DNA of 11,444 nt. Source: Anaerolineaceae bacterium. GTDB lineage: Bacteria > Chloroflexota > Anaerolineae > Anaerolineales > Anaerolineaceae. Position 1 is the stretch's first letter, and each line of letters starts with the position of its first letter. This document shows, piece by piece, positions 179 to 11,047 of the stretch. The stretch covers positions 1 to 11,444 of the forward strand of contig JAQTMA010000056.1 in NCBI GenBank assembly GCA_028714615.1, in the 5' to 3' direction. Below the pieces are notes generated by a model. It was not told where the DNA came from. It made no database searches and saw nothing but the letters and a program-made list of their open reading frames with translations. The position numbers were made by a program, and so were the translations under genes.

Positions 179-1489
179 TTATGAGTCGGCTAAGGGTTTC
201 TGGCTAGTTTCTCCCGGTAGGAAGAAGGCTGCCGTGCCGGCCAAAACATAAGATAGGGCAAAAACGGTCAATGGGACCAATAAACTGTAATTGAGCAGAA
301 TCCCCCCCAGGCTTGGAGCAATTGCACCAGCAATACGGGTCATTCCGCTGGCCGCACCCATCCCGGTTCCTCGTAGAATGGTGGGGTAGGCTTCCGGTGT
401 GTAAGCATACAGCGCACCCCATGCACCCAGGGTAAAGAAAGACATCCAAATCCCCATTGCTACAATCCAATTCAACGAAGTAACCGCCGCAAATAGAAAC
501 GTGAATAACCCACTGGCGATCAGGTAGAAACCCAGAGTTTTCCGTCTCCCCAACCGCTCGACCAGGTAGGCAGCGGAAAAGTATCCTGGAAGTTGTGCTA
601 AGGCCAGAATAAAGCTGTTTTGGTACACCGGCAACAATCCCATCCCCTGGGATTTGAACGAATTCGGTAGCCAGGTGAACACACCATAATACCCTAGTGA
701 TATCAAAAACCAAATAGCCCATAGGAGAAAAGTGGTCCGGCGCAATACGGGTTTCCAGATATCTCCCACGGAAGACTTGGTGCTAATCAATGGTTTCAAG
801 TGGAAATCAGCTAACTCACGCCCATTTTCCAAAGCCACTTGTCGTAGTATCCTGGCAGATTGGTCTACTTTCCCCTTGACCAACAAAAAACGTGGAGATT
901 CAGGGATATAAAGCCTTATAAACAAGACGATTGCCGCGGAAATCGCTGGGATTGCGAAAAGCCAACGCCAACCTAACGTTGGAACGACCGCCCAGGCCAG
1001 CCCGGCTGCCAGCAGGCTACCCAAAGCCCAAAATGATTCCAGCAGCACCAGGTACCGCCCGCGCCGGTGGGCAGGTAGATATTCGGCAAAGATAGAATAA
1101 TCGACCGGCAGCATACCACCTACCCCAAATCCGGTCAGCCCGCGCAGAACAAGCAACCACACAAATGAGGGCGCCAATGCCGAAAACAGCCCAAAAAGCG
1201 AAGCGATCAACACCGTAGCAATAAAACTAACCTTGCGCCCGATACCATCACTCAACCGTCCCCAAAACCAGGCTCCCACCAACATGCCAAGAAAAATTGC
1301 TGTCCCTAATAAGCCGGTTTGAGCGCTGGTCAGGTTCCATTCCTGGCGAATCGCCGGAAGCGCGAAAGAGATCAACAAAACTTCCATCGCATCTGCTGCC
1401 CAGCCCAAACCACAGATGAAAAGTAATTTCTGTTGGAATCGTCCAAAACCAATCTGATCGATGGCTTCTTCAAAAGATAGTACGGTCAA
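179..1489 (-). CDS. MFS transporter, NiaP/SV2-like (metabolite:H+ symporter type)
   Basis: This is a 436-aa inner-membrane carrier of the major facilitator superfamily with about 12 predicted helices. Visible signatures are DAMEVLLISF (33-42) in helix 1, the loop 2-3 motif GRLSDGIGRK (77-86), RGLTGFGVGG (116-125) in helix 4, PESPRFLLVKG (196-206) before the central loop, and the second-half repeat ERLGRRK (311-317). TPEAYPTILRG (364-374) is also typical of this group. This pattern matches the NiaP/SV2-like and sugar-porter-like families, which move small organic acids, nicotinate or aromatic acids. The substrate cannot be read from the sequence. The start is TTG (1489-1487), with a modest AAGAGA upstream; the next in-frame ATG is residue 35, inside helix 1. 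It lies 42 nt after the XpaC-like gene in the same direction and may be its last co-transcribed gene. Its functional link to the TelA cassette is unproven. Confidence 0.88.
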   Translation of the reverse strand: MTVLSFEEAIDQIGFGRFQQKLLFICGLGWAADAMEVLLISFALPAIRQEWNLTSAQTGLLGTAIFLGMLVGAWFWGRLSDGIGRKVSFIATVLIASLFGLFSALAPSFVWLLVLRGLTGFGVGGMLPVDYSIFAEYLPAHRRGRYLVLLESFWALGSLLAAGLAWAVVPTLGWRWLFAIPAISAAIVLFIRLYIPESPRFLLVKGKVDQSARILRQVALENGRELADFHLKPLISTKSSVGDIWKPVLRRTTFLLWAIWFLISLGYYGVFTWLPNSFKSQGMGLLPVYQNSFILALAQLPGYFSAAYLVERLGRRKTLGFYLIASGLFTFLFAAVTSLNWIVAMGIWMSFFTLGAWGALYAYTPEAYPTILRGTGMGAASGMTRIAGAIAPSLGGILLNYSLLVPLTVFALSYVLAGTAAFFLPGETSQKPLADS

Positions 1490-1531: not shown

Positions 1532-2149
1532 CTATAGGATACTGGCGGGTTTCTGGAATTTTTCTTTTAGGAACTGGCCTTGAACCATCAGCTTTTGGGT
1601 GTCATTGGCATATACTGCCTGAACGACTTCTTTCATCTCCTGGTCCAGTAAAGCGAGCTGATCCATCAACAGTTGCTTAGGAGTTTTGCCATCTTTAACC
1701 GGATGCAAGTTGGCATAAGCTGGGGGTAAATTGAGATAGTTTTGCAAAGAAGCTGGGAGATAATCTAAAGCGGTCTGTTTGATGGTAAACGTATTGTAAT
1801 CGCTATCGGTAAGGGCTACGATCTGGGGTAGCACTTCCAGGATCGACCCCTTAATACTTTGCACGATGTCCATCACTTCTTTGGGGACCTTTCCGGTGAT
1901 TTTGTGAATCAGTTCATCCAACTCCTCGCGGATATCATTCGCCGTGAGTTGGTTTTTGAGGCTCAGATCGTAAGTTGGGCTACGTGGGGTGGCAAGGACG
2001 CCGATCCCGTATAGCCCAATTACGATCAAGAACCAGAATTGGTGGATGAAGCCCAGGAAGAACAGAGCAAGCCCCAGGATGCCGAGGAGACTGCCAACAA
2101 GGTTGGCCGTGCTGTACAGATATAGCAGCAAACGCTGTCTTTTTTCCAT
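1532..2149 (-). CDS. Two-helix membrane protein, XpaC-like
   Basis: This 205-aa protein has two adjacent hydrophobic helices (about 12-34 and 37-54). A soluble C-terminal region follows, mostly predicted helical, with YLPASLQNYLNLPPAY at 130-145 and a terminal helix (159-198) rich in Q, E, K and L. Length, hairpin-plus-helical-tail layout and linkage to a TelA gene all recall XpaC of Bacillus, encoded beside the TelA-family yaaN. The family label '5-bromo-4-chloroindolyl phosphate hydrolysis' says little about real function, and no catalytic motif is visible. I chose the ATG at 2149 because it lies 4 nt after the stop of the vWA gene; an ATG at 2224 in the same frame would need 71 nt of overlap and adds a non-membrane, basic extension. 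It probably anchors or scaffolds the TelA partner at the membrane (inference). Homology to XpaC needs a profile search. Confidence 0.75.
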   Translation of the reverse strand: MEKRQRLLLYLYSTANLVGSLLGILGLALFFLGFIHQFWFLIVIGLYGIGVLATPRSPTYDLSLKNQLTANDIREELDELIHKITGKVPKEVMDIVQSIKGSILEVLPQIVALTDSDYNTFTIKQTALDYLPASLQNYLNLPPAYANLHPVKDGKTPKQLLMDQLALLDQEMKEVVQAVYANDTQKLMVQGQFLKEKFQKPASIL

Positions 2150-2153
2150 GAGT

Positions 2154-3725
2154 CTATTGGTAACCGCGGATTTCCTTGAAGATAAACGGAAGTGAATCCT
2201 TGCTGGCATCGAACATCCGCCCACCGGTCAGATCAGCAATCGATTGCAAAGTTTTTGCATCAGCTTCACCAAACAGGATTGTAAAAGTCCGGATATTGGT
2301 CAGGCCGGGGGTAGATTTGTAATAACCAGTAAATTCATTCTCTGAAATGCCGGAGTTGTTTTCGCCATCCGTCATCAGCACAATCGAATAAGTTCGATCG
2401 GGCTCCTGCCGGTAGGTCTGAAGCGCCAGGTTGTAAGCATTTTGAAGAGCCGAAAAGATGGCGGTACTTCCACCAGCATTTAGAGCATGCACGTAGTCAC
2501 GAATCTGTTGGAGACTGGCGGGCTGGTTGGTATCTACCTCAAAATCGGAGGCGGTAACAACCTGTGAATTGAACGGTAAGATTGTGATCTTCTCCCGGTT
2601 GCGGAAACGAGCAAATTGCCCGGTCAGGCTGGTATCGGCTCCGGTCAAATTATCCATCGCTTTTACCAGGTTGTCCAGGCGGTCCCCATTCATCGAACCG
2701 CTGGTGTCGAGGACGTAATAGGTGTGAGAAGGCTTGACCTGCTCATTTAGGTAGCTGACTAACAACGCGTCGACAACCTCACGGCTGCTCGGAAAAGAAA
2801 CCTCGACCAACAATTGTTTTGGAAAATCAGCATCTAAGGTCACCTGGCTGTTCACAGGACGGCGCAGGGTTTTGACCATGATCTCGCGTTGAAAATCCGT
2901 TGATTTCAAATACGTAACCAGTTTATTGTAATCATCCCGCTTATCCGGGTTGAGCAATAGGAGGGGATAATCAGCGGTGATGATGCCCTCTTTGGGATAG
3001 ACCAGGTATAGCTTTTCTTTTAACTTGCCACTCTTATTCTGGGCGAGCAAGACCGATTCATAATTGACCATCCCGTCTAATTGGTCCTGGTCGGTAATGT
3101 ACTGTTCAGCCAACCAGCCTGAACTTCCAGCGGTGAGCGACTGTCCCTTGAAAAACCCTTGCAATTGAGGCGTAATGCTGGCGATATCCTCTTTCTGCAA
3201 TGCATCTCCCTTGCCAGCCAGGGCAGAAGCAACCCCGATCAGAGCGGAAAACCCAGAGTTGGAAGAAGAAGGATTGGTCATGGCAAAGTGCAAGTCACCG
3301 CTGGCTGCTTTTTGTACCACATCGCTCCAGGTCAGGTTAGGATTGTCGACCCAGCCCCAGGCGTGCGCCTTGCTCTCTTTTATTCCCAGCACCACCGGGG
3401 AAAGCATGATCTTTTCCTGAGCCAGTACCTTATCCTTTGAGCCTTCCATCAGGTTGAGGTATTTCGCGTGGCTAAACCAGGCCAGGTCAAACTTCGCTCC
3501 GGACATGATCTGTTCAGCGCCGTCCAAAGTACCGGTAAATTGAAACGTCAGGCGGATGCCGGTATTTTGCTGGATTTCGTCCAACATCGGCGCCAGGTCA
3601 TTCAGTTCTGAACCGGCCAACACAGTCAGAACCTTACCTCGCTTCTGAGAAGTGCTACAACCATTCGCGCTGAGCAGAAGCACGGTCAGTAAACAAATGA
3701 AAGACAGACTCCGGCGGAAGTTCAT
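2154..3725 (-). CDS. Lipoprotein fusing a solute-binding-like domain to a vWA domain
   Basis: This 523-aa exported protein starts with a short basic N-terminus, a hydrophobic core (7-19) and a lipobox-like SANGC with Cys23, so it is probably a lipoprotein on the outer face of the membrane. Residues about 32-300 resemble a type 2 periplasmic binding protein (ModA-like): TWSD (132-135), SSSNSG (153-158), MVNYES (219-224) and a YP at 243-244. Residues about 335-520 are a vWA domain with a complete MIDAS metal site: DTSGSM (340-345), GGSTAI (418-423) and MTDGEN (451-456). The vWA half predicts divalent-cation-dependent protein binding. No permease or ATPase gene is nearby, so uptake is unlikely to be the role. 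It follows the TelA gene by 27 nt and is followed 4 nt later by the XpaC-like gene. The ATG at 3725 fits the signal peptide; AAGG/AGG bases upstream give a weak ribosome-binding site. Confidence 0.87.
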   Translation of the reverse strand: MNFRRSLSFICLLTVLLLSANGCSTSQKRGKVLTVLAGSELNDLAPMLDEIQQNTGIRLTFQFTGTLDGAEQIMSGAKFDLAWFSHAKYLNLMEGSKDKVLAQEKIMLSPVVLGIKESKAHAWGWVDNPNLTWSDVVQKAASGDLHFAMTNPSSSNSGFSALIGVASALAGKGDALQKEDIASITPQLQGFFKGQSLTAGSSGWLAEQYITDQDQLDGMVNYESVLLAQNKSGKLKEKLYLVYPKEGIITADYPLLLLNPDKRDDYNKLVTYLKSTDFQREIMVKTLRRPVNSQVTLDADFPKQLLVEVSFPSSREVVDALLVSYLNEQVKPSHTYYVLDTSGSMNGDRLDNLVKAMDNLTGADTSLTGQFARFRNREKITILPFNSQVVTASDFEVDTNQPASLQQIRDYVHALNAGGSTAIFSALQNAYNLALQTYRQEPDRTYSIVLMTDGENNSGISENEFTGYYKSTPGLTNIRTFTILFGEADAKTLQSIADLTGGRMFDASKDSLPFIFKEIRGYQ

Positions 3726-3752
3726 GACCTGCCTTGACTTTCAATCTCTCGA

Positions 3753-4970
3753 TTATAGGTGGATGTCATTATCAGGGATTGACACATCGATATCGCCTGC
3801 AGTCCGGGCGGCTTCTTCCCGGCGCACTCGGTCCAAGTAGGTTTGAGATTTCTCAATCTCGGTTGATAGTGTATCGACAGTCTGTTTCATGGTCGTCAAT
3901 GCCTGAACTTTATAATTTGAAATCATGTCCATCGATTCATAGATATTGGCAAAAGCTTTCTGGAGACTCTCGACGCTGAGGGTTGCACTGGCGGCTTGTT
4001 GGTGGATATCTACGGATTGCTTGCGCAGTAACTGTGAGGTTGATTCAATCAGGCTGCTGGTTGTGGTATTGAGAGCTGTGATCTGATCCAAAACCAGTTT
4101 TTGATTTGCAAGCGCTTGGGCTACGATGACCGCTGTACGTAGTGCAGATACCGTTGTGGTCGTAGCCCGATCGACGCCCTTGATCAGCTCAAGGTTATTA
4201 CGGCGCACCATATCAAGCGCCAGGTATCCCTGGATGTTCACTGCCTGCTGGGTCAGTAAATCCTGAACCTTCTGGCGCACATAAAAGAGCATTTCTTCTT
4301 TGACTACCCGCGCTTTCTCCGGATCAGAAGCTTCAATGGTTGCAATGCGGTCCTCCAACGCCGTATCGATTTTCTTGCCAACATAAACGTACTGCTGGAG
4401 CTGGCCCATCAGGTTCCACAGGTTGACCTTTTCTTGTTCAATGGCTGCATTGTCTTTCCGTAGTTCATCCTGGCCTTGATAGAGGGCGTTGATGATGGCA
4501 TTGATGTGGCTTTGAGAAGACTGGTAGCGCATAAAGTAATCTTGCAGCTTGTTGCCGAAAGGGATCAAGCCCAACAGTTTTTGTGGTGAAAACAGATCGC
4601 CTTGGTGTGCAGGATCCAGGCTCTCCACAGTTTTTCGTAGGTCCACCAATGATTTAGAGATGGGCGCTGTGTCGTTAAACAACCCACTTTCCATCGACTT
4701 AACCGGCTTATCCAACATTCTGTTCGAAACGCTGGCTGAGGCCCGGATTTCCTTGACGCCCAGGTTATGGATCGCTTCAACTCGCTCTTTGAATGGATCG
4801 CTTTGCACATCCGAACGGATCACAATATCGGTAAATTCACTGACCTTATCATCCAGGTGTGTGAGTGTAGCCGAATCCAACTTCACCATCTGGCTGGCCT
4901 GGTCTGGAGCAACCGCCTGGACTGGTTCCGGCGGGGTGAGGGTGTTCGGAGGGACTAACTCGTTCGCCAT
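3753..4970 (-). CDS. TelA-family toxic anion resistance protein
   Basis: This 405-aa soluble, almost wholly helical protein has no signal peptide or membrane segment. It fits the TelA/KlaA family, originally named for plasmid tellurite resistance and widespread as YaaN-like proteins. Signs are the family length, LIPFGNKLQDYF (135-146), the long charged helices with YVYVGKKIDTALEDRI (194-209), and the polar Thr-rich stretch RATTTTVSALRTAVIVAQAL (268-287). The N-terminus (1-28) is proline-rich and disordered-looking, and the tail after about 385 is acidic. The ATG at 4970 has AGGAG seven bases upstream, overlapping the stop of the preceding gene. Biochemical function is unknown for the family; comparative genomics places TelA proteins with ter-type chemical stress genes, vWA proteins and XpaC. 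Here it sits between two genes for extracytoplasmic binding-type proteins, so I infer a cytoplasmic partner of a membrane complex. Confidence 0.9.
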   Translation of the reverse strand: MANELVPPNTLTPPEPVQAVAPDQASQMVKLDSATLTHLDDKVSEFTDIVIRSDVQSDPFKERVEAIHNLGVKEIRASASVSNRMLDKPVKSMESGLFNDTAPISKSLVDLRKTVESLDPAHQGDLFSPQKLLGLIPFGNKLQDYFMRYQSSQSHINAIINALYQGQDELRKDNAAIEQEKVNLWNLMGQLQQYVYVGKKIDTALEDRIATIEASDPEKARVVKEEMLFYVRQKVQDLLTQQAVNIQGYLALDMVRRNNLELIKGVDRATTTTVSALRTAVIVAQALANQKLVLDQITALNTTTSSLIESTSQLLRKQSVDIHQQAASATLSVESLQKAFANIYESMDMISNYKVQALTTMKQTVDTLSTEIEKSQTYLDRVRREEAARTAGDIDVSIPDNDIHL

Positions 4971-4980
4971 AGCAATTCTC

Positions 4981-6060
4981 CTATTGTTTATATTTCTGCT
5001 CGATTTGCTGGATCATTTTTTCAAGGATCTCATAACTTGGCGGATCCACAACGTCGACAAGGGTGTCAGGTAAGGTCAGGTTGCGGCTTTTTTTCACCTG
5101 CTTGAACAGCTCCGTGTTCGCGTTCCGAAAACCGTTTTCGACTGCCAGACGCTGCAGATCAGGATCCGTTTGGAGTAGTTGGCCCAATTTCTGACCATTG
5201 GGGGTAAGTGCAATCAAGGTATGCTTGCTATAAATGGTCGGCTCAGGATACATCAACACCATATCGGTAGAGATGCCTTCAGGTTGAACAGCCTGATTAA
5301 TATAGGATGATTCATAAACCATCACCATGGGTGCTTTGCCGACCCCCATACTGACATAATCTTGAAACGGAACTTCCGACGAGTATTCGGTAAAACCTTG
5401 CTTCAGGAATAACGATTCGACCAGAGGGAGAACTTTTCGGATGTCGTCATCACTCTGCACCACGTTATTGCCATTGGCCACGTAGCTCGCCAATGCCAGG
5501 TACATCGCGGCAGAGTTCGATTGGCGCACGTCAGTGGAGACGATTAATATGCTTTTATTAACGTTGTAATCCGCGTTGTTCTTTAGATCGCTCCAGCGTT
5601 TACCATCGGTCACGATTTGCAAGTACGCCGCCATATCCAGTGTGTAATAACCGCCCTGGTTTTTGGCGATTCCATTGGCCTCGAGGATATTGGCGATCGA
5701 TTTCCAGGACGCGATTGCCATCGGTGTGAAGAATTCGTCGAACGCTTTTTCAAATTTTGGGTCCTGGCGAAGCTTGGTGGCGGCTGGCACCCCTGCCGGG
5801 AAAACAAAATCATACTTGCTCAAATCTGTATTCGCAATTGTTCGCGAGCCTGCCTTTTCAAATTGGACTTCAACACCCCCCTTGTGTAGAGCATCGACCA
5901 CTTTCGGGTCGCGAAAAAAAGCCTCTTTTTCCGATCCGATCAAGCCTTTGACTGTCACGATCTGCCGCAAAGCTAGCTGCTGATTAACAGAAAAAAAGAT
6001 AGCCGTGCCAACACCGATTACGAGCACGACCAACATCAACGGGCCTAACAGCCGTTTCAT
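4981..6060 (-). CDS. Membrane-anchored solute-binding-like protein
   Basis: This 359-aa protein has a single N-terminal hydrophobic helix (about 5-24) without a lipobox Cys, so it is either secreted or anchored by an uncleaved signal. The rest resembles a type 2 substrate-binding domain: RWSDL (155-159), STDVRQSNSA (175-184), APMVMVYESSY (243-253) and YPEPTIYSKHTL (271-282). The order and spacing of WSD, SNS, MV-x-x-YES and YP parallel the binding half of the vWA lipoprotein two genes downstream, so the two are likely paralogous domains. The C-terminus (340-359) is a short charged helix. The ATG at 6060 has a clear AGGAG six bases upstream (6071-6067). It is the first gene of the TelA cluster and its stop overlaps the Shine-Dalgarno of the TelA gene. 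Ligand unknown. Confidence 0.8.
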   Translation of the reverse strand: MKRLLGPLMLVVLVIGVGTAIFFSVNQQLALRQIVTVKGLIGSEKEAFFRDPKVVDALHKGGVEVQFEKAGSRTIANTDLSKYDFVFPAGVPAATKLRQDPKFEKAFDEFFTPMAIASWKSIANILEANGIAKNQGGYYTLDMAAYLQIVTDGKRWSDLKNNADYNVNKSILIVSTDVRQSNSAAMYLALASYVANGNNVVQSDDDIRKVLPLVESLFLKQGFTEYSSEVPFQDYVSMGVGKAPMVMVYESSYINQAVQPEGISTDMVLMYPEPTIYSKHTLIALTPNGQKLGQLLQTDPDLQRLAVENGFRNANTELFKQVKKSRNLTLPDTLVDVVDPPSYEILEKMIQQIEQKYKQ

Positions 6061-6185: not shown

Positions 6186-7700
6186 TTAGACCGGTAAGCG
6201 CACCTCAAAAACCGAACCCTTTCCCACCTCACTTTGCACACTGACCTGCCCCTTGTGCGCCTGGGCAATCCACTGCACGATGGAAAGACCGAGACCGCTC
6301 CCATCCGGAGAATCATCAGGAGATCCAATGGGAACAGCGCCATCATGATGCGTCCGAGCTTTATCCACCCGGTAGAAGCGGTCAAACAAATGAGGTAGAG
6401 CGTCAGGTGGAATACCCGGTCCATCGTCTTCCACCCGTACCCACCCATACTTCGATATCCCTTCAACCAGCAGCCCGGTATGGATGCAAACGTGTTTTCC
6501 CGGCGTTCCAGCGTATTTGATGGCGTTTTCAACCAGGTTGGTCAGCATCTGGGAGAGGTACAGGCGATCGCCCTGCATTGGGAGCGGCGGCAGCTCACCT
6601 GTCGTCAGTTCAATGCCCTGGCGGCGCGCTAATCCGTTCAGGCGTTCCGTCACGTCCAAAGCAAGGTCGCTGAGATCGACCGGTTCGTGCCGTAAATGGG
6701 TTTGACCGGCATCCATCCGTGCCAGGGTGAGCAAGTCATTCACCAGGCGAGCCATAGACTCATTCTCGGATTGGATGATTTTTATTGCACGCTGGTAATC
6801 TTCAGGGGCGCGTTGGCGTTCCAAAGCGTGATCGGCTTCGAGACCAACAATGGTCAAGGGTGTGCGTAATTCGTGGCTGGCATCCGCGGTGAACTGGCGC
6901 TGGCGTTCAAAAGCGGCTTCCAGGCGGGCTAGCATAGCGTCGAATGTGTTAGCCAGTTCTCCAAGCTCGTCTTTCGTTTGCAAGTTCAAGCGTTGGTGCA
7001 TGTCGTTATCGCTGATCCCGCGCGCTGTACGTGTGATCACGCGTACCGGCGCCATTGCCCGGCTGGCTATCCAGTACCCGCCCGCGAGCGCAATGACCAG
7101 GGTAGAGATCGATGCGAGCAACAACGTGATTAATAAGCGAGGAAGCTGGCTTTGGGGATCGATCGGTTGGCCGAGAATCACAACGCCAATCGGGTGGCGC
7201 TCCATAAACATCGGGCTGATCAAGTACTCGTAGCGCACGTCTTTACTCTTTCCTGAAATAAAAACAGTATACTCAGCGGTTGAGCCTGGAGGGATATCAC
7301 GCGAAGCCTGCTGCCAATCTGCCAATAGAACAGTAACACTCGGGTTGGTAATCTCTCCGGCTGATTGCACCAGATGCCCATCTGGGCCGATTAATGCCAA
7401 CACCTCACCGGCATCGAGAGCTGAGAATCCATTGCTGGTCAGGTCAGGTGGTTGAAAATGATCCCCTTCCGCATCCACCAATCCGGCCACCCGGTAGAGG
7501 GTCTGCACTTGCTGGTATTTGAGCTGGAGGTGATTTTGCGCTTCAATCTGTAAATCCTGCAACTGCCGGTAGTAGATAATGCCGCTAAAAATAACCAGGA
7601 TAACCGCCAGAATGGCCACCGTCCACAAGGTAAGCCGAAAGCGAATACTGTGGAAGAAATCCCCCATTCTTTTGCGCACAGGATTCAGACGTTTATCCAT
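6186..7700 (-). CDS. Sensor histidine kinase (HisKA/HATPase, HAMP)
   Basis: This 504-aa inner-membrane kinase is the partner of the adjacent regulator. The first membrane helix is about 22-44, then an extracytoplasmic sensor of about 140 residues (46-186), a second helix about 188-210, and HAMP about 211-263. In the HisKA segment FTADASHELRTPLT (270-283) the phosphorylated residue is His276. The ATP-binding domain shows the N box LVENAIKY (389-396), G1 DDGPGI (425-430), the F box region FDRFYRVD (439-446) and G2 GSGLGLSI (467-474). The lid between F and G2 is long and carries an HH-DG and PDDSPDG stretch. The sensor has no family I can name. The ATG at 7700 has GAGG seven bases upstream and lies 9 nt after the regulator stop; ATG at residue 12 is a possible shorter start. 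No chromosomal symbol can be assigned. Confidence 0.95.
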   Translation of the reverse strand: MDKRLNPVRKRMGDFFHSIRFRLTLWTVAILAVILVIFSGIIYYRQLQDLQIEAQNHLQLKYQQVQTLYRVAGLVDAEGDHFQPPDLTSNGFSALDAGEVLALIGPDGHLVQSAGEITNPSVTVLLADWQQASRDIPPGSTAEYTVFISGKSKDVRYEYLISPMFMERHPIGVVILGQPIDPQSQLPRLLITLLLASISTLVIALAGGYWIASRAMAPVRVITRTARGISDNDMHQRLNLQTKDELGELANTFDAMLARLEAAFERQRQFTADASHELRTPLTIVGLEADHALERQRAPEDYQRAIKIIQSENESMARLVNDLLTLARMDAGQTHLRHEPVDLSDLALDVTERLNGLARRQGIELTTGELPPLPMQGDRLYLSQMLTNLVENAIKYAGTPGKHVCIHTGLLVEGISKYGWVRVEDDGPGIPPDALPHLFDRFYRVDKARTHHDGAVPIGSPDDSPDGSGLGLSIVQWIAQAHKGQVSVQSEVGKGSVFEVRLPV

Positions 7701-7709
7701 TCATGGACC

Positions 7710-8393
7710 TCATCCAAGGGTGGGCGGGGTAACCAACCGGTAACCCGCTCCTCGAACCGTCTCGAACAACTTGGCTTCGTGCATGTCATCAATTTTGCGG
7801 CGTAACCGGCGGATATAAACATCGATTACATTCGAACTCCCCTCAAAATCATAATTCCAGATATGGCTTTCAGCCATCTCCCGGGTGATCAGCCGGTCAG
7901 GGTTGCGCATAAAGTATTCCAACAAAGAATATTCCTTCGCGGTCAGGTCAATTTCCTGACCGGCGCGTTGTACTCGATGAGCTGCCGGGTCCAGTTTAAG
8001 GTCCCCCACGGAGAGCACCCCTGACTTATCGCTGGATTCTCGGCGCAGGAGAGCCCGTAAACGGGCGCGGAGCTCACTAAGCGAGAATGGTTTAACCAAA
8101 TAATCGTCTGCTCCACTGTCCAGACCCGTGATACGATCCTCGATCGTATCACGGGCTGTCAGCATCAAGATCGGCGTGTTTACCCGGTTGTCGCGTAAAT
8201 CCTGACAGACCTGCATGCCGTTTTTCTTCGGTAGCATGATATCCAAGACGATGGCATCGTAGGAGGTCACCTCTGCCAGTTGCTCACCTTCCAAACCGTC
8301 ATAAGCGGTGTCAATAGCATACCCATCCTCAGACAGGCTCATCTTCAAGGAGTCACTCAGGCGATGATTGTCCTCGACCAACAAGATACGCAT
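7710..8393 (-). CDS. OmpR/PhoB-family response regulator
   Basis: This 227-aa transcription factor has a receiver domain (1-118) with the acidic pair Glu7 and Asp8, the phospho-acceptor Asp51 in VLDIMLP, Thr79 in LMLTARD, and Lys101 in LVKPF. All catalytic positions are present. A winged-helix DNA-binding domain (about 126-224) has EIDLTAKEYSLLEYF (147-161), the recognition helix region SSNVIDVYIRRLRRKID (186-202) and VRGAGYRL (213-220). It should bind direct repeats as a dimer when phosphorylated. The ATG at 8393 has GGAGG seven bases upstream. First gene of the two-gene signalling operon, divergent from the coiled-coil/ApbE/ferric-reductase operon, which is a natural target. Codons 81-90 contain a perfect 14-bp inverted repeat at DNA level (listed separately). 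Confidence 0.96.
   Translation of the reverse strand: MRILLVEDNHRLSDSLKMSLSEDGYAIDTAYDGLEGEQLAEVTSYDAIVLDIMLPKKNGMQVCQDLRDNRVNTPILMLTARDTIEDRITGLDSGADDYLVKPFSLSELRARLRALLRRESSDKSGVLSVGDLKLDPAAHRVQRAGQEIDLTAKEYSLLEYFMRNPDRLITREMAESHIWNYDFEGSSNVIDVYIRRLRRKIDDMHEAKLFETVRGAGYRLVTPPTLG
8125..8155. repeat. Perfect 14-bp inverted repeat inside the response-regulator gene
   Basis: Left arm CCCGTGATACGATC (8125-8138), spacer CTC (8139-8141), right arm GATCGTATCACGGG (8142-8155). The arms are exact reverse complements and would form a 14-bp stem with a 3-nt loop in RNA. It encodes the conserved receiver stretch ARDTIEDRITG after Thr79. There is no T-run beside it, so it is not a standard intrinsic terminator. 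It may be a coincidence of codon choice in a conserved motif, or an mRNA structure. Confidence 0.9.
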
Positions 8394-9049: not shown

Positions 9050-9346
9050 ATGAAACCATTAAAACTTGGATTGCGCATCTGGATCGCACTATCGAGCATC
9101 ATTGCTTTTTTGGGTGGCTGGGCTTTGTTTTCCCACGCCAACAAACCCGTCTCAATCTTTTCGGCCCCCAGTCAGAGTCAGAGCATCGATTCGGGCGCCC
9201 TGGCGCCGATCCCGACGCTTCCCCCGGTGCCTTCACTCGACCAACTCACCAATGGGTCAAGGAATAGCGCTATTCAACCGCTACCTCCGCTTCCCCAGAT
9301 CAGCTCGCAGCAATTCATGCCGCGTTTGCGCACCATGGGGTCATGA
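9050..9346 (+). CDS. Small membrane-anchored proline-rich protein
   Basis: This 98-aa protein has the positive start MKPLKLGLR, one hydrophobic helix (about 9-28) and an extracytoplasmic tail. The tail is rich in Pro and Ser, with PIPTLPPVPSL (53-63) and IQPLPPLPQI (75-84). A TTGGAG seven bases upstream supports the ATG at 9050. Its TGA overlaps the apbE ATG by four bases (ATGA), so translation is likely coupled and the gene is real despite its size. It has no Cys or heme motif. It contains DSGAL (47-51), which resembles the flavinylation signature but lacks the Thr/Ser that would carry FMN, so it is not an evident ApbE substrate. No family recognised. Confidence 0.75.
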   Translation: MKPLKLGLRIWIALSSIIAFLGGWALFSHANKPVSIFSAPSQSQSIDSGALAPIPTLPPVPSLDQLTNGSRNSAIQPLPPLPQISSQQFMPRLRTMGS

Positions 9347-10272
9347 TGAGGTACCGCGAATTCCGAGCGATGAATACCAGCATTCTCCTGGCCGCCAGTG
9401 GGCGTCCGGAAGAAATCGAGGTAGGTTTTCAACATACTGAGGCATTTATCCGGGCCAGCGAACAACGATTTACCCGCTTCTCAGATGAAAGCGAGCTGGC
9501 TCATCTCAACCGGTCTGCTGGTGAGTGGTTCCTGGCAACGGATGACCTCTACGAAGTGGTCCAAACTGCCGTTAAATTCCACGGCGAAACCGGAAAATTG
9601 TTTGACCCGGGGATTTTACCCGCACTAGAACGAGCAGGGTATGACCGTTCGATGGACGAGCTCCGAGCGCATGGAGGGGAAGTACAAACCGTCCCGGTCG
9701 CACTAAAACAAGCAGAATTTGATCAGGTTGAGCTCGATCCAGACTGCAAGCGCATCCGACTTCCTTCTGGACTCAAAATCGACCTGGGAGGGATTGCTAA
9801 GGGTTGGATTGCAGAACGCGCCGCTCAAGTGCTTTCCGAGTTTAGCCAGGCTTGTGCGGTAGATGCCGGCGGCGACGCATTCATGATCGGTATACCTATC
9901 CATTCGGAGACCTGGCGGATTTCCCTGGAAGATCCGGGTGACTCGAGCCGCACGCTAGCGGTATTGAAAGTCCATCCGGGGGCCATCGCCACTTCGGCAA
10001 TTACCAAACGACGCTGGCAGCAGGGTGACAAGACCCACCACCATTTGATCGATCCGCGCACCCAACAGCCTGCGGACACCGATTGGCTTAGCGTGACGGT
10101 GGTGGCAAACCACGCCGCACAGGCGGAAGTCTACGCGAAATGCCTTTTGATTGGCGGATCTCAGGAAGTCAATGAAATCTCAAACCGGGCAACCGGGATC
10201 GAATTTATTGCCGTAGACCAGCACAAACGCATGTGGGGGTCACAGCACAGCAGGGAGTTACTCGATGTCTGA
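9343..10272 (+). CDS. apbE: FAD:protein FMN transferase ApbE
   Basis: This 309-aa enzyme of the ApbE family uses FAD to attach FMN covalently to a Thr/Ser of target flavoproteins, with Mg2+. Motifs in order: FRAMNTSI (7-14), FTRFSDESELAHLNRSAG (43-60), KLFDPGILPALERAGYD (85-101), KIDLGGIAKGWIAERA (145-160), VDAGGDAF (173-180), AIATSAITKRRW (214-225) and HHHLIDPRTQQP (232-243). The ATSAITKRRW/HHHLIDPRT pattern is the variant form of the usual ATSGD...HIIDP motif. There is no signal peptide or lipobox, unlike many ApbE lipoproteins, so it probably acts in the cytoplasm. It overlaps the preceding gene by 4 nt and the following gene by 8 nt. ApbE next to a ferric-reductase-like protein normally indicates flavin-based transmembrane electron transfer, but no FMN_bind protein with a D-x-x-S/T-G-A-T/S motif is seen in this window. 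Confidence 0.95.
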   Translation: MMRYREFRAMNTSILLAASGRPEEIEVGFQHTEAFIRASEQRFTRFSDESELAHLNRSAGEWFLATDDLYEVVQTAVKFHGETGKLFDPGILPALERAGYDRSMDELRAHGGEVQTVPVALKQAEFDQVELDPDCKRIRLPSGLKIDLGGIAKGWIAERAAQVLSEFSQACAVDAGGDAFMIGIPIHSETWRISLEDPGDSSRTLAVLKVHPGAIATSAITKRRWQQGDKTHHHLIDPRTQQPADTDWLSVTVVANHAAQAEVYAKCLLIGGSQEVNEISNRATGIEFIAVDQHKRMWGSQHSRELLDV

Positions 10273-11047
10273 TGGTAAATCGTTTTCTATTCAATCTCAC
10301 TCACCCGCGCCCAGATATATGAACGCGTTGACGATGCTGGGTTGGCTAGGGGGTACTATTATTTTGGTGACCGTATTCATGGTCGCCACCCTGCTGATGC
10401 AAGCGCCGGTCGGCAGCTCAGTCACCGGTTTTCTCAGTTGGTTATTTGCAGCCGACAGTGTGCAAGTGATGTGGTTTATTACCCGCGCGGCCGGGTTTAC
10501 CGCCTACATCCTCATCTGGCTTTCGGTCGCCTGGGGGCTGGCGGTCTCCAACAAGATCCTGGACCATCTGCTGCATCGCCAGATCACGTACGATTTTCAC
10601 CAGTTCATCTCACTGCTGGCGATTGGATTTCTCTTACTGCACATTGGGATTTTGCTCTTCGATCGTTATCTACCGTACAGCGTCTTACAAATCCTGGTTC
10701 CATTCCTTTCACCCTATCGCCCACTTTGGGTGGGGATCGGGGTTATCGCTTTCTACCTGACCCTTCTGGTGACGGTAACCTACTACCTGCGCGGTCGGAT
10801 TGGCATGAAGGCATTCCGCTCGATCCACGTGCTTAGCCTGGTTGCGTACCTGGGGGCTAGCATTCATGGGTTCTTTTCCGGCACCGACTCGTCCTTGATC
10901 TCCGTGCAATACTTATACGCAGGAACCTTTCTGGCGACGGTTTTCCTGATGGTATATTGGTTGATCTTTTTGGCTCAAAAGCATCCCGCTGGGAAACCTG
11001 GAGTTGTTCCGCAAAAGTCCGCTCCCGACCTTCCCCGTTCTCGATAG
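10265..11047 (+). CDS. Ferric-reductase-like transmembrane di-heme protein
   Basis: This 260-aa inner-membrane protein has about six hydrophobic helices (roughly 23-47, 67-93, 110-132, 156-175, 186-203 and 213-237) and resembles the ferric reductase-like transmembrane domain (also the NOX/YedZ core). Four helix histidines are the probable b-heme ligands: His112 and His126 in one helix (13 residues between), His188 and His201 in another (12 between), in IHVLSL and SIHGFFSGTDS. The cytoplasmic FAD/NAD(P)H half found in NOX-type enzymes is absent, so electrons must come from or go to a separate protein, presumably one carrying flavin from ApbE. The ATG at 10265 has AGGGAG seven bases upstream and overlaps the apbE end by 8 nt. 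Last gene of the operon; the tail is Lys/Pro-rich. Donor and acceptor are unknown. Confidence 0.88.
   Translation: MSDGKSFSIQSHSPAPRYMNALTMLGWLGGTIILVTVFMVATLLMQAPVGSSVTGFLSWLFAADSVQVMWFITRAAGFTAYILIWLSVAWGLAVSNKILDHLLHRQITYDFHQFISLLAIGFLLLHIGILLFDRYLPYSVLQILVPFLSPYRPLWVGIGVIAFYLTLLVTVTYYLRGRIGMKAFRSIHVLSLVAYLGASIHGFFSGTDSSLISVQYLYAGTFLATVFLMVYWLIFLAQKHPAGKPGVVPQKSAPDLPRSR

Follow-up and report, generated by a model that had tools for sequence, protein, structure and literature searches.

An 11,444-nt contig from an Anaerolineaceae bacterium (assembly GCA_028714615.1, contig JAQTMA010000056.1; the whole stretch is called the window here) carries a row of four genes on its minus strand, encoding a type II substrate-binding protein (SBP1), a TelA-family protein, a fusion of a second substrate-binding protein (SBP) domain to a vWA domain (SBP-vWA) and a 205-amino-acid (aa) protein referred to here as XpaC-like. 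Our analyses indicate that this cassette recurs in the same order in several phyla, with TelA as a frequent but non-universal member. We read it as a transporter-free, envelope-spanning operon that would act as an envelope-stress sensor or tether, with a probability of roughly 0.45. For TelA, a widespread 'resistance' family with an obscure molecular role, the cassette offers a testable input and a defined set of partners. The tight packing of the four genes, already pointed out in an earlier note on the window, was confirmed from the positions of the open reading frames, which leave intergenic gaps of 10, 27 and 4 nt.

Genome contigs were scanned with an alignment of SBP-vWA alone, and the best 80 of the 110 relatives found were kept as loci (numbered with the prefix L). 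SBP1, TelA, SBP-vWA and XpaC-like genes follow one another in this order and on one strand at 52 of the 80 loci (at 49 without deviation, at three with an additional copy or with TelA broken), 16 loci have SBP1, SBP-vWA and XpaC-like genes with no TelA between, and four (L005, L006, L051 and L078) have only SBP1 and SBP-vWA. A further six start at a contig edge and are without SBP1, L025 stops at a contig edge ahead of the XpaC-like gene, and L056 is SBP-vWA alone. SBP1 was found at 73 loci and the XpaC-like gene at 74, the matches to the latter being weak (25-43 bits) at L032, L044, L066 and L080. Repetition of the full four-gene order at 52 loci of several phyla far exceeds what chance would give; the four families do recur together elsewhere, as the earlier note proposed checking, and their association is not local. 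The loci belong to Chloroflexota, Pseudomonadota, Actinomycetota, Acidobacteriota, Eremiobacterota (Vulcanimicrobiota), Dormibacterota and Thermodesulfobacteriota, with one more in a Bacteroidota metagenome-assembled genome (MAG); phyla were taken from record titles and NCBI names, and those of MAGs are possibly wrong. Among named organisms, the closest relatives come mainly from Anaerolineaceae and elsewhere in Chloroflexota, together with one MAG labelled Smithella. Records filed as plasmids carry the cassette in Sphaerotilus, Variovorax and Nonomuraea (an 11.85-Mb record), and in Deinococcus without TelA.

At the cut-offs used, the cassette is rare, patchy and all-or-none. In 150 genomes of Burkholderiales, the order of G004 (Undibacterium, included by choice), SBP-vWA (E ≤ 1e-40), XpaC-like (E ≤ 1e-5) and SBP1 (E ≤ 1e-15) were each found in five, these being the identical five genomes with the genes contiguous, and TelA in eight, including all five cassette genomes, in which SBP1 and SBP-vWA flank it. 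Among 150 genomes from the class of G001, SBP-vWA (E ≤ 1e-60) and XpaC-like were each found in one, G001 itself, and TelA matches in four, above the cut-off in two. A phylum-wide sample gave SBP-vWA profile matches (E ≤ 0.001) in 79 of 121 genomes; only G001 scored at the level expected within the cassette, with 814 bits against at most 187 bits for the others, and most rows among the matches listed span the vWA part alone. Such a rare, patchy, all-or-none distribution would fit a horizontally moving operon.

SBP1 has no Pfam match at E ≤ 1. Its AlphaFold model (mean predicted local distance difference test score, pLDDT, 90.5) shows an N-terminal helix (residues 2-32) followed by a type II binding-protein fold, and a Foldseek search of the PDB with this model returned SBPs in the top rows (best E 8.7e-9, TM-scores about 0.4-0.7), including PotD, FutA and ModA, which serve in transport. 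Hydropathy marks a hydrophobic segment at residues 1-29; all 71 SBP1 relatives have such an N-terminal segment and 0/71 a lipobox, and SBP1 is predicted to be membrane-anchored by a single N-terminal transmembrane (TM) helix. Since profile alignment matches SBP1 to the SBP half of SBP-vWA (hhalign probability 94.1, E 1.2e-7), the two SBP domains are paralogues, as the earlier note had suggested, and the type II fold was recognized in both, by Foldseek in SBP1 and by PF13531 and paralogy in SBP-vWA.

SBP-vWA matches PF13531 (59.8 bits) and PF00092 (48.3 bits); its SBP part reaches PF12974 at 25.8 bits, under the cut-off of 27 bits, and its profile weakly resembles ModA/molybdate-binding proteins (E 0.0027). 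The metal ion-dependent adhesion site (MIDAS) of the vWA domain is intact, in line with the earlier description, its DxSxS, T and D residues all being present and near-invariant (D340, S344, T421 and D453 in 38/38 aligned rows, S342 in 37/38). Cys23, the lipid-anchor Cys, is kept in 38/38 rows and a lipobox was found by regular expression in 72 of 79 relatives; SBP-vWA is predicted to be a lipoprotein with an extracytoplasmic vWA domain. The protein closes with FKxIRGYQ in all 38 aligned rows, and IRGYQ is the C-terminus in 117 of the 120 top-ranking sequences among 4853 database relatives and at 77 of the 80 loci (IRGYV in three), these 77 including 17/17 loci in which the tail pattern of the search is absent. 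This near-invariance suggests a docking or gating role for the tail. In Thiodictyon and Streptomyces (L101, L102), more distant SBP-vWA genes have unknown genes or a second SBP as neighbours. Distant genes of the Chloroflexota sample reach up to 187 bits, and those in G080 and G112, for example, each lie near a second SBP-like match, hinting at a wider SBP-vWA superfamily.

The earlier note described the 205-aa protein as XpaC-like and named its placement outside the XpaC family by profile searches as a refutation; the searches made here do not place it in that family. Pfam gives nothing for it at E ≤ 1 or at E ≤ 10, PF10112 is absent from the 25 families listed, out of 65, for 59 of its relatives, and in five cassette genomes PF10112 never matches the cassette gene, the sole match (L081) being another gene. 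Alignment of the 205-aa profile with 12 PF10112 relatives gave a weak signal (hhalign probability 38.8, E 3.2e-4), and the cytosolic part scored 23.5 against PF10112 compared with a maximum of 18.3 in 180 shuffles, though with a probability of only 3.2. The gene starts at ATG 2149 (an alternative GTG start would give 230 aa) and 158 homologues were found in a database search. In the structure model (mean pLDDT 80), helices at residues 14-31 and 39-53 precede a helical bundle that is presumably cytosolic, and a PDB structure search with it gave no clear match. With TM segments followed by a helical domain in the model and TelA in or beside most cassettes, we call the protein XpaC-like by layout and neighbourhood and do not count it as a member of the XpaC family. 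A PF10112 gene adjoins a TelA gene at one of 13 PF10112 loci checked (L092; mostly 3.5-kb stretches), and as the genome of L092 shares its phylum with G003, PF10112-TelA pairing exists outside Firmicutes.

TelA is a clear PF05816 protein (309.5 bits against a curated cut-off of 30) with no hydrophobic or TM segment by hydropathy. It lies in or just beside the cassette at 58 of the 80 loci, is missing from 20 and could not be judged at two; the 20 genomes with TelA-less cassettes have TelA elsewhere in six cases and none detected in 14, where drafts may miss genes. TelA is hence not an obligatory member, which corrects the picture drawn in the earlier note. TelA is a frequent add-on to a core composed of the anchored SBP, the SBP-vWA lipoprotein and the two-TM helical protein, which persists without TelA and two of whose proteins (SBP1 and the 205-aa protein) lack a Pfam match. 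In Arsenicicoccus (G282) the cassette consists of SBP1, SBP-vWA and XpaC-like and a TelA-XpaC-like pair lies on another contig. Pairs of this kind, separate from the cassette genes, stand at L113, in the genome of the TelA-less cassette L041, and at L049, just upstream of SBP1, SBP-vWA and XpaC-like. At L034:773-3520, from an Acidobacteriota MAG, the TelA frame between SBP1 and SBP-vWA is broken, possibly by an assembly error.

In a tree of SBP1 plus SBP-vWA, the TelA-less rows (22, counting L015 and L034, whose TelA is partial or broken) are scattered, with 11 changes counted, 9 of them forced by starred branches. Cassette TelA falls into two deeply separate groups in the TelA tree, one of 18 rows (Shimodaira-Hasegawa-like approximate likelihood ratio test, SH-aLRT, 94), and five non-cassette Methylococcaceae TelA genes nest among cassette TelA of Chloroflexota and Pseudomonadota. 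The 18-row group corresponds to a part of the cassette tree that holds 17 rows and four more labelled TelA-less (SH-aLRT 97), which fits either a single TelA exchange or faster change there. The trees are quick ones without bootstrap, and long branches were flagged in the TelA tree for L034, L103, L113, L084, L085 and L086.

We favour an envelope-stress sensor or tether because the TelA-XpaC pairs of Firmicutes lie in envelope-stress regulons. The conserved gene order, the joint presence in the same Burkholderiales genomes, the paralogous SBPs with their SBP fold, the intact MIDAS and lipid-anchor Cys, the separate TelA-XpaC-like pairs and the lack of a consistent transporter partner also speak for this reading. 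We infer that the four proteins form one complex, and likewise infer its topology beyond hydropathy, its direction of signalling, its ligand and its output. The arrangement guessed in the earlier note, with TelA inside, the XpaC-like protein and anchored SBP in the membrane and the vWA lipoprotein outside, fits the sequences: SBP1 has its hydrophobic segment, SBP-vWA its lipobox, the 205-aa model two TM helices and TelA none. SBP1, held by one TM helix, and the lipoprotein SBP-vWA would thus sit outside the membrane, each with a conserved binding cleft, and an acidic partner could bind to the MIDAS by way of a divalent metal. Loading or loss of ligand in the SBPs would alter the contact between SBP1 and SBP-vWA, the two-TM XpaC-like protein would relay this change across the membrane, and its cytosolic helical domain would recruit or release TelA, which at the inner face of the membrane would keep the envelope intact during stress. 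In lineages without TelA, the same outer core may work with another cytosolic partner or with none. A broader proposition, which we consider rather doubtful, is that of a widespread class of receptors without transporters, dispersed horizontally, in which two paralogous SBPs, one with a MIDAS-bearing vWA domain whose fixed FKxIRGYQ tail docks or gates the complex, would signal through a two-TM helical adaptor to exchangeable cytosolic effectors, TelA the commonest; if true, TelA would be an effector of ligand-gated envelope sensing.

Several observations weigh against the sensor or tether reading. TelA cannot be its obligatory output, since searches of the 20 genomes with a TelA-less cassette detected none in 14; XpaC homology of the 205-aa protein is unproven, so that the evidence from Firmicutes may reach only TelA; and no XpaC-like gene was detected at L005, L006, L051, L078 or the lone SBP-vWA locus L056. 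Neighbour genes give no consistent hint, and the distant Chloroflexota genes, such as those in G080 and G112, appear to show that the SBP-vWA fusion also occurs outside the cassette. A rival reading is a signalling receptor formed by SBP1, SBP-vWA and the XpaC-like protein on their own, with TelA secondarily added and exchanged. It draws support from the scattered absence of TelA in the cassette tree while the core persists, from the two deep groups of cassette TelA and from L006, where an OmpR-type response regulator directly follows SBP-vWA in a genome without TelA and at a locus without an XpaC-like gene. However, with TelA at 58 of the 80 loci, much can be accounted for by its loss from an ancestral set of four genes, the response regulator is a single case and the trees are of the quick kind described, and we give this alternative a small chance.

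Also unlikely, to our mind, is resistance to toxic oxyanions or metals, in which the SBPs and MIDAS would sequester or sense these and TelA would provide tolerance. The family name of TelA, the faint molybdate-binding and PF12974 likeness of the SBP part, the heavy-metal models nearest to the two-component proteins of the window (under their cut-offs) and the reported tellurite sensitivity of L. cremoris when levels of Orf53/TelA/TelB/TelC drop (PMC13109727) speak for it. Against this, TelA is often absent, homologues of the two-component proteins flank only two of the 80 loci (L006 and L024), and no reductase or efflux family was found in the ten of 13 recurring neighbour clusters scanned. 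Uptake is more improbable still, that is, SBPs feeding an ATP-binding cassette (ABC) importer encoded elsewhere with TelA and the XpaC-like protein as regulators. SBP1 does resemble PotD, FutA and ModA in fold, SBP-vWA is weakly ModA-like in profile, and a Vibrio plasmid TelA is accompanied by SBP-type and vWA proteins and by an ABC permease and ATPase. Yet, as the earlier note had observed, transporter subunits are missing: the Pfam scan of the window, which covered ten proteins, revealed no ABC permease or ATPase, and with the Vibrio ABC ATPase and permease as queries no consistent partner emerged over the 80 loci, ATPase homologues occurring in the flanks of 18 at varying distance and strand and a permease homologue near one. 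Moreover, one SBP is TM-anchored and the other vWA-fused, both unusual among importer SBPs.

Features of the window are collected in the table below. The nearest NCBIfam models of the two-component pair upstream of the cassette are heavy-metal sensor kinase and regulator types, with scores below the cut-offs (232.9 of 292.55 bits and 257.4 of 279.2 bits). The ApbE gene and its multi-TM neighbour, for which Pfam gives no match at E ≤ 1, are perhaps a small flavinylation/membrane redox locus. PADLOC models of known anti-phage defence systems gave 0 families for all four cassette proteins at E ≤ 1. At other loci, the SBP1-SBP-vWA pair with its response regulator (L006:168-5570) is preceded by a small kinase-like frame, recognized by reading alone, and by a frame of a SpoIIE-type phosphatase cluster that occurs near four of the 80 loci (L006, L010, L054 and L057). 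On a Variovorax plasmid (L086), a Wadjet JetA gene and a gene with a flotillin domain are found close to the cassette.

Table. Features of the 11,444-nt window (TM, transmembrane; MFS, major facilitator superfamily).
Feature	Position	Strand	Remarks
SBP1	4981..6060	-	359 aa; type II substrate-binding protein, predicted N-terminal TM anchor
SBP1 TM anchor helix (predicted)	5974..6057	-	hydropathy and structure model
TelA-family protein	3753..4970	-	405 aa; PF05816; frequent, non-universal member
SBP-vWA fusion, predicted lipoprotein	2154..3725	-	523 aa; PF13531 and PF00092
SBP domain of SBP-vWA, residues 34-280	2886..3626	-	Pfam and hhalign against SBP1 profile
vWA domain of SBP-vWA, residues 338-509	2199..2714	-	Pfam; MIDAS intact
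SBP-vWA C-terminal tail FKEIRGYQ	2157..2180	-	abuts stop codon
XpaC-like 205-aa protein	1532..2149	-	two TM helices and helical bundle (model), no PF10112 match
Histidine kinase/response regulator pair	6186-8393	-	upstream of cassette, 125 nt from SBP1
MFS transporter	179-1489		downstream of cassette
ApbE-family gene	9343-10272		followed by the multi-TM protein
Multi-TM protein	10265-11047		260 aa

The components are of known kinds, and the joined operon was not found described in the open-access literature covered, where term searches gave either no paper or papers on TelA, XpaC or tellurium resistance. The SBPs share the type II fold with those of ABC importers (ModA, PotD and FutA type), and differ in being anchored or vWA-fused in a cassette without importer genes. 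On the Vibrio plasmids L103 and L114, TelA adjoins a vWA gene and several SBP-type genes, as in the cassette, in a possible transporter-linked analogue; unlike the cassette, this cluster has its own ABC permease and ATPase, OmpA-domain proteins and a vWA that is a separate protein, and no L103 protein matched the cassette vWA, SBP1 or XpaC-like profiles. TelA and vWA domains also come together in Ter systems (TerC/TerD/TelA/TerF-vWA), a proposed sub-membrane stress system according to PMC7824862 (citing Anantharaman et al. 2012), whereas the vWA of the cassette is predicted to be extracytoplasmic and is SBP-fused. No TerB, TerC or TerD was found among the ten proteins scanned, a scan limited to the window. 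TerD neighbours accompany a non-cassette TelA on a Curtobacterium plasmid.

The xpaC-telA (xpaC-yaaN) operon of Firmicutes is assigned in B. subtilis to the core regulon of sigma-W (PMC3498285). In L. lactis the pair belongs to the CesSR regulon, and deleting both genes partly hampers growth during membrane-protein overproduction (PMC3139573). In Listeria it belongs to the LiaSR regulon (PMC12791056; PMC11765107), and loss of telA there reportedly raises nisin sensitivity fourfold (PMC12791056, which cites Collins et al. 2010). The passages covered mention no SBP or vWA genes for these pairs, and the cassette differs further in a 205-aa protein that fails PF10112 and in its optional TelA. In both, nevertheless, TelA adjoins a small membrane protein with a helical domain, and for the Firmicutes operon, as we propose for the cassette, an envelope role has been reported or proposed.

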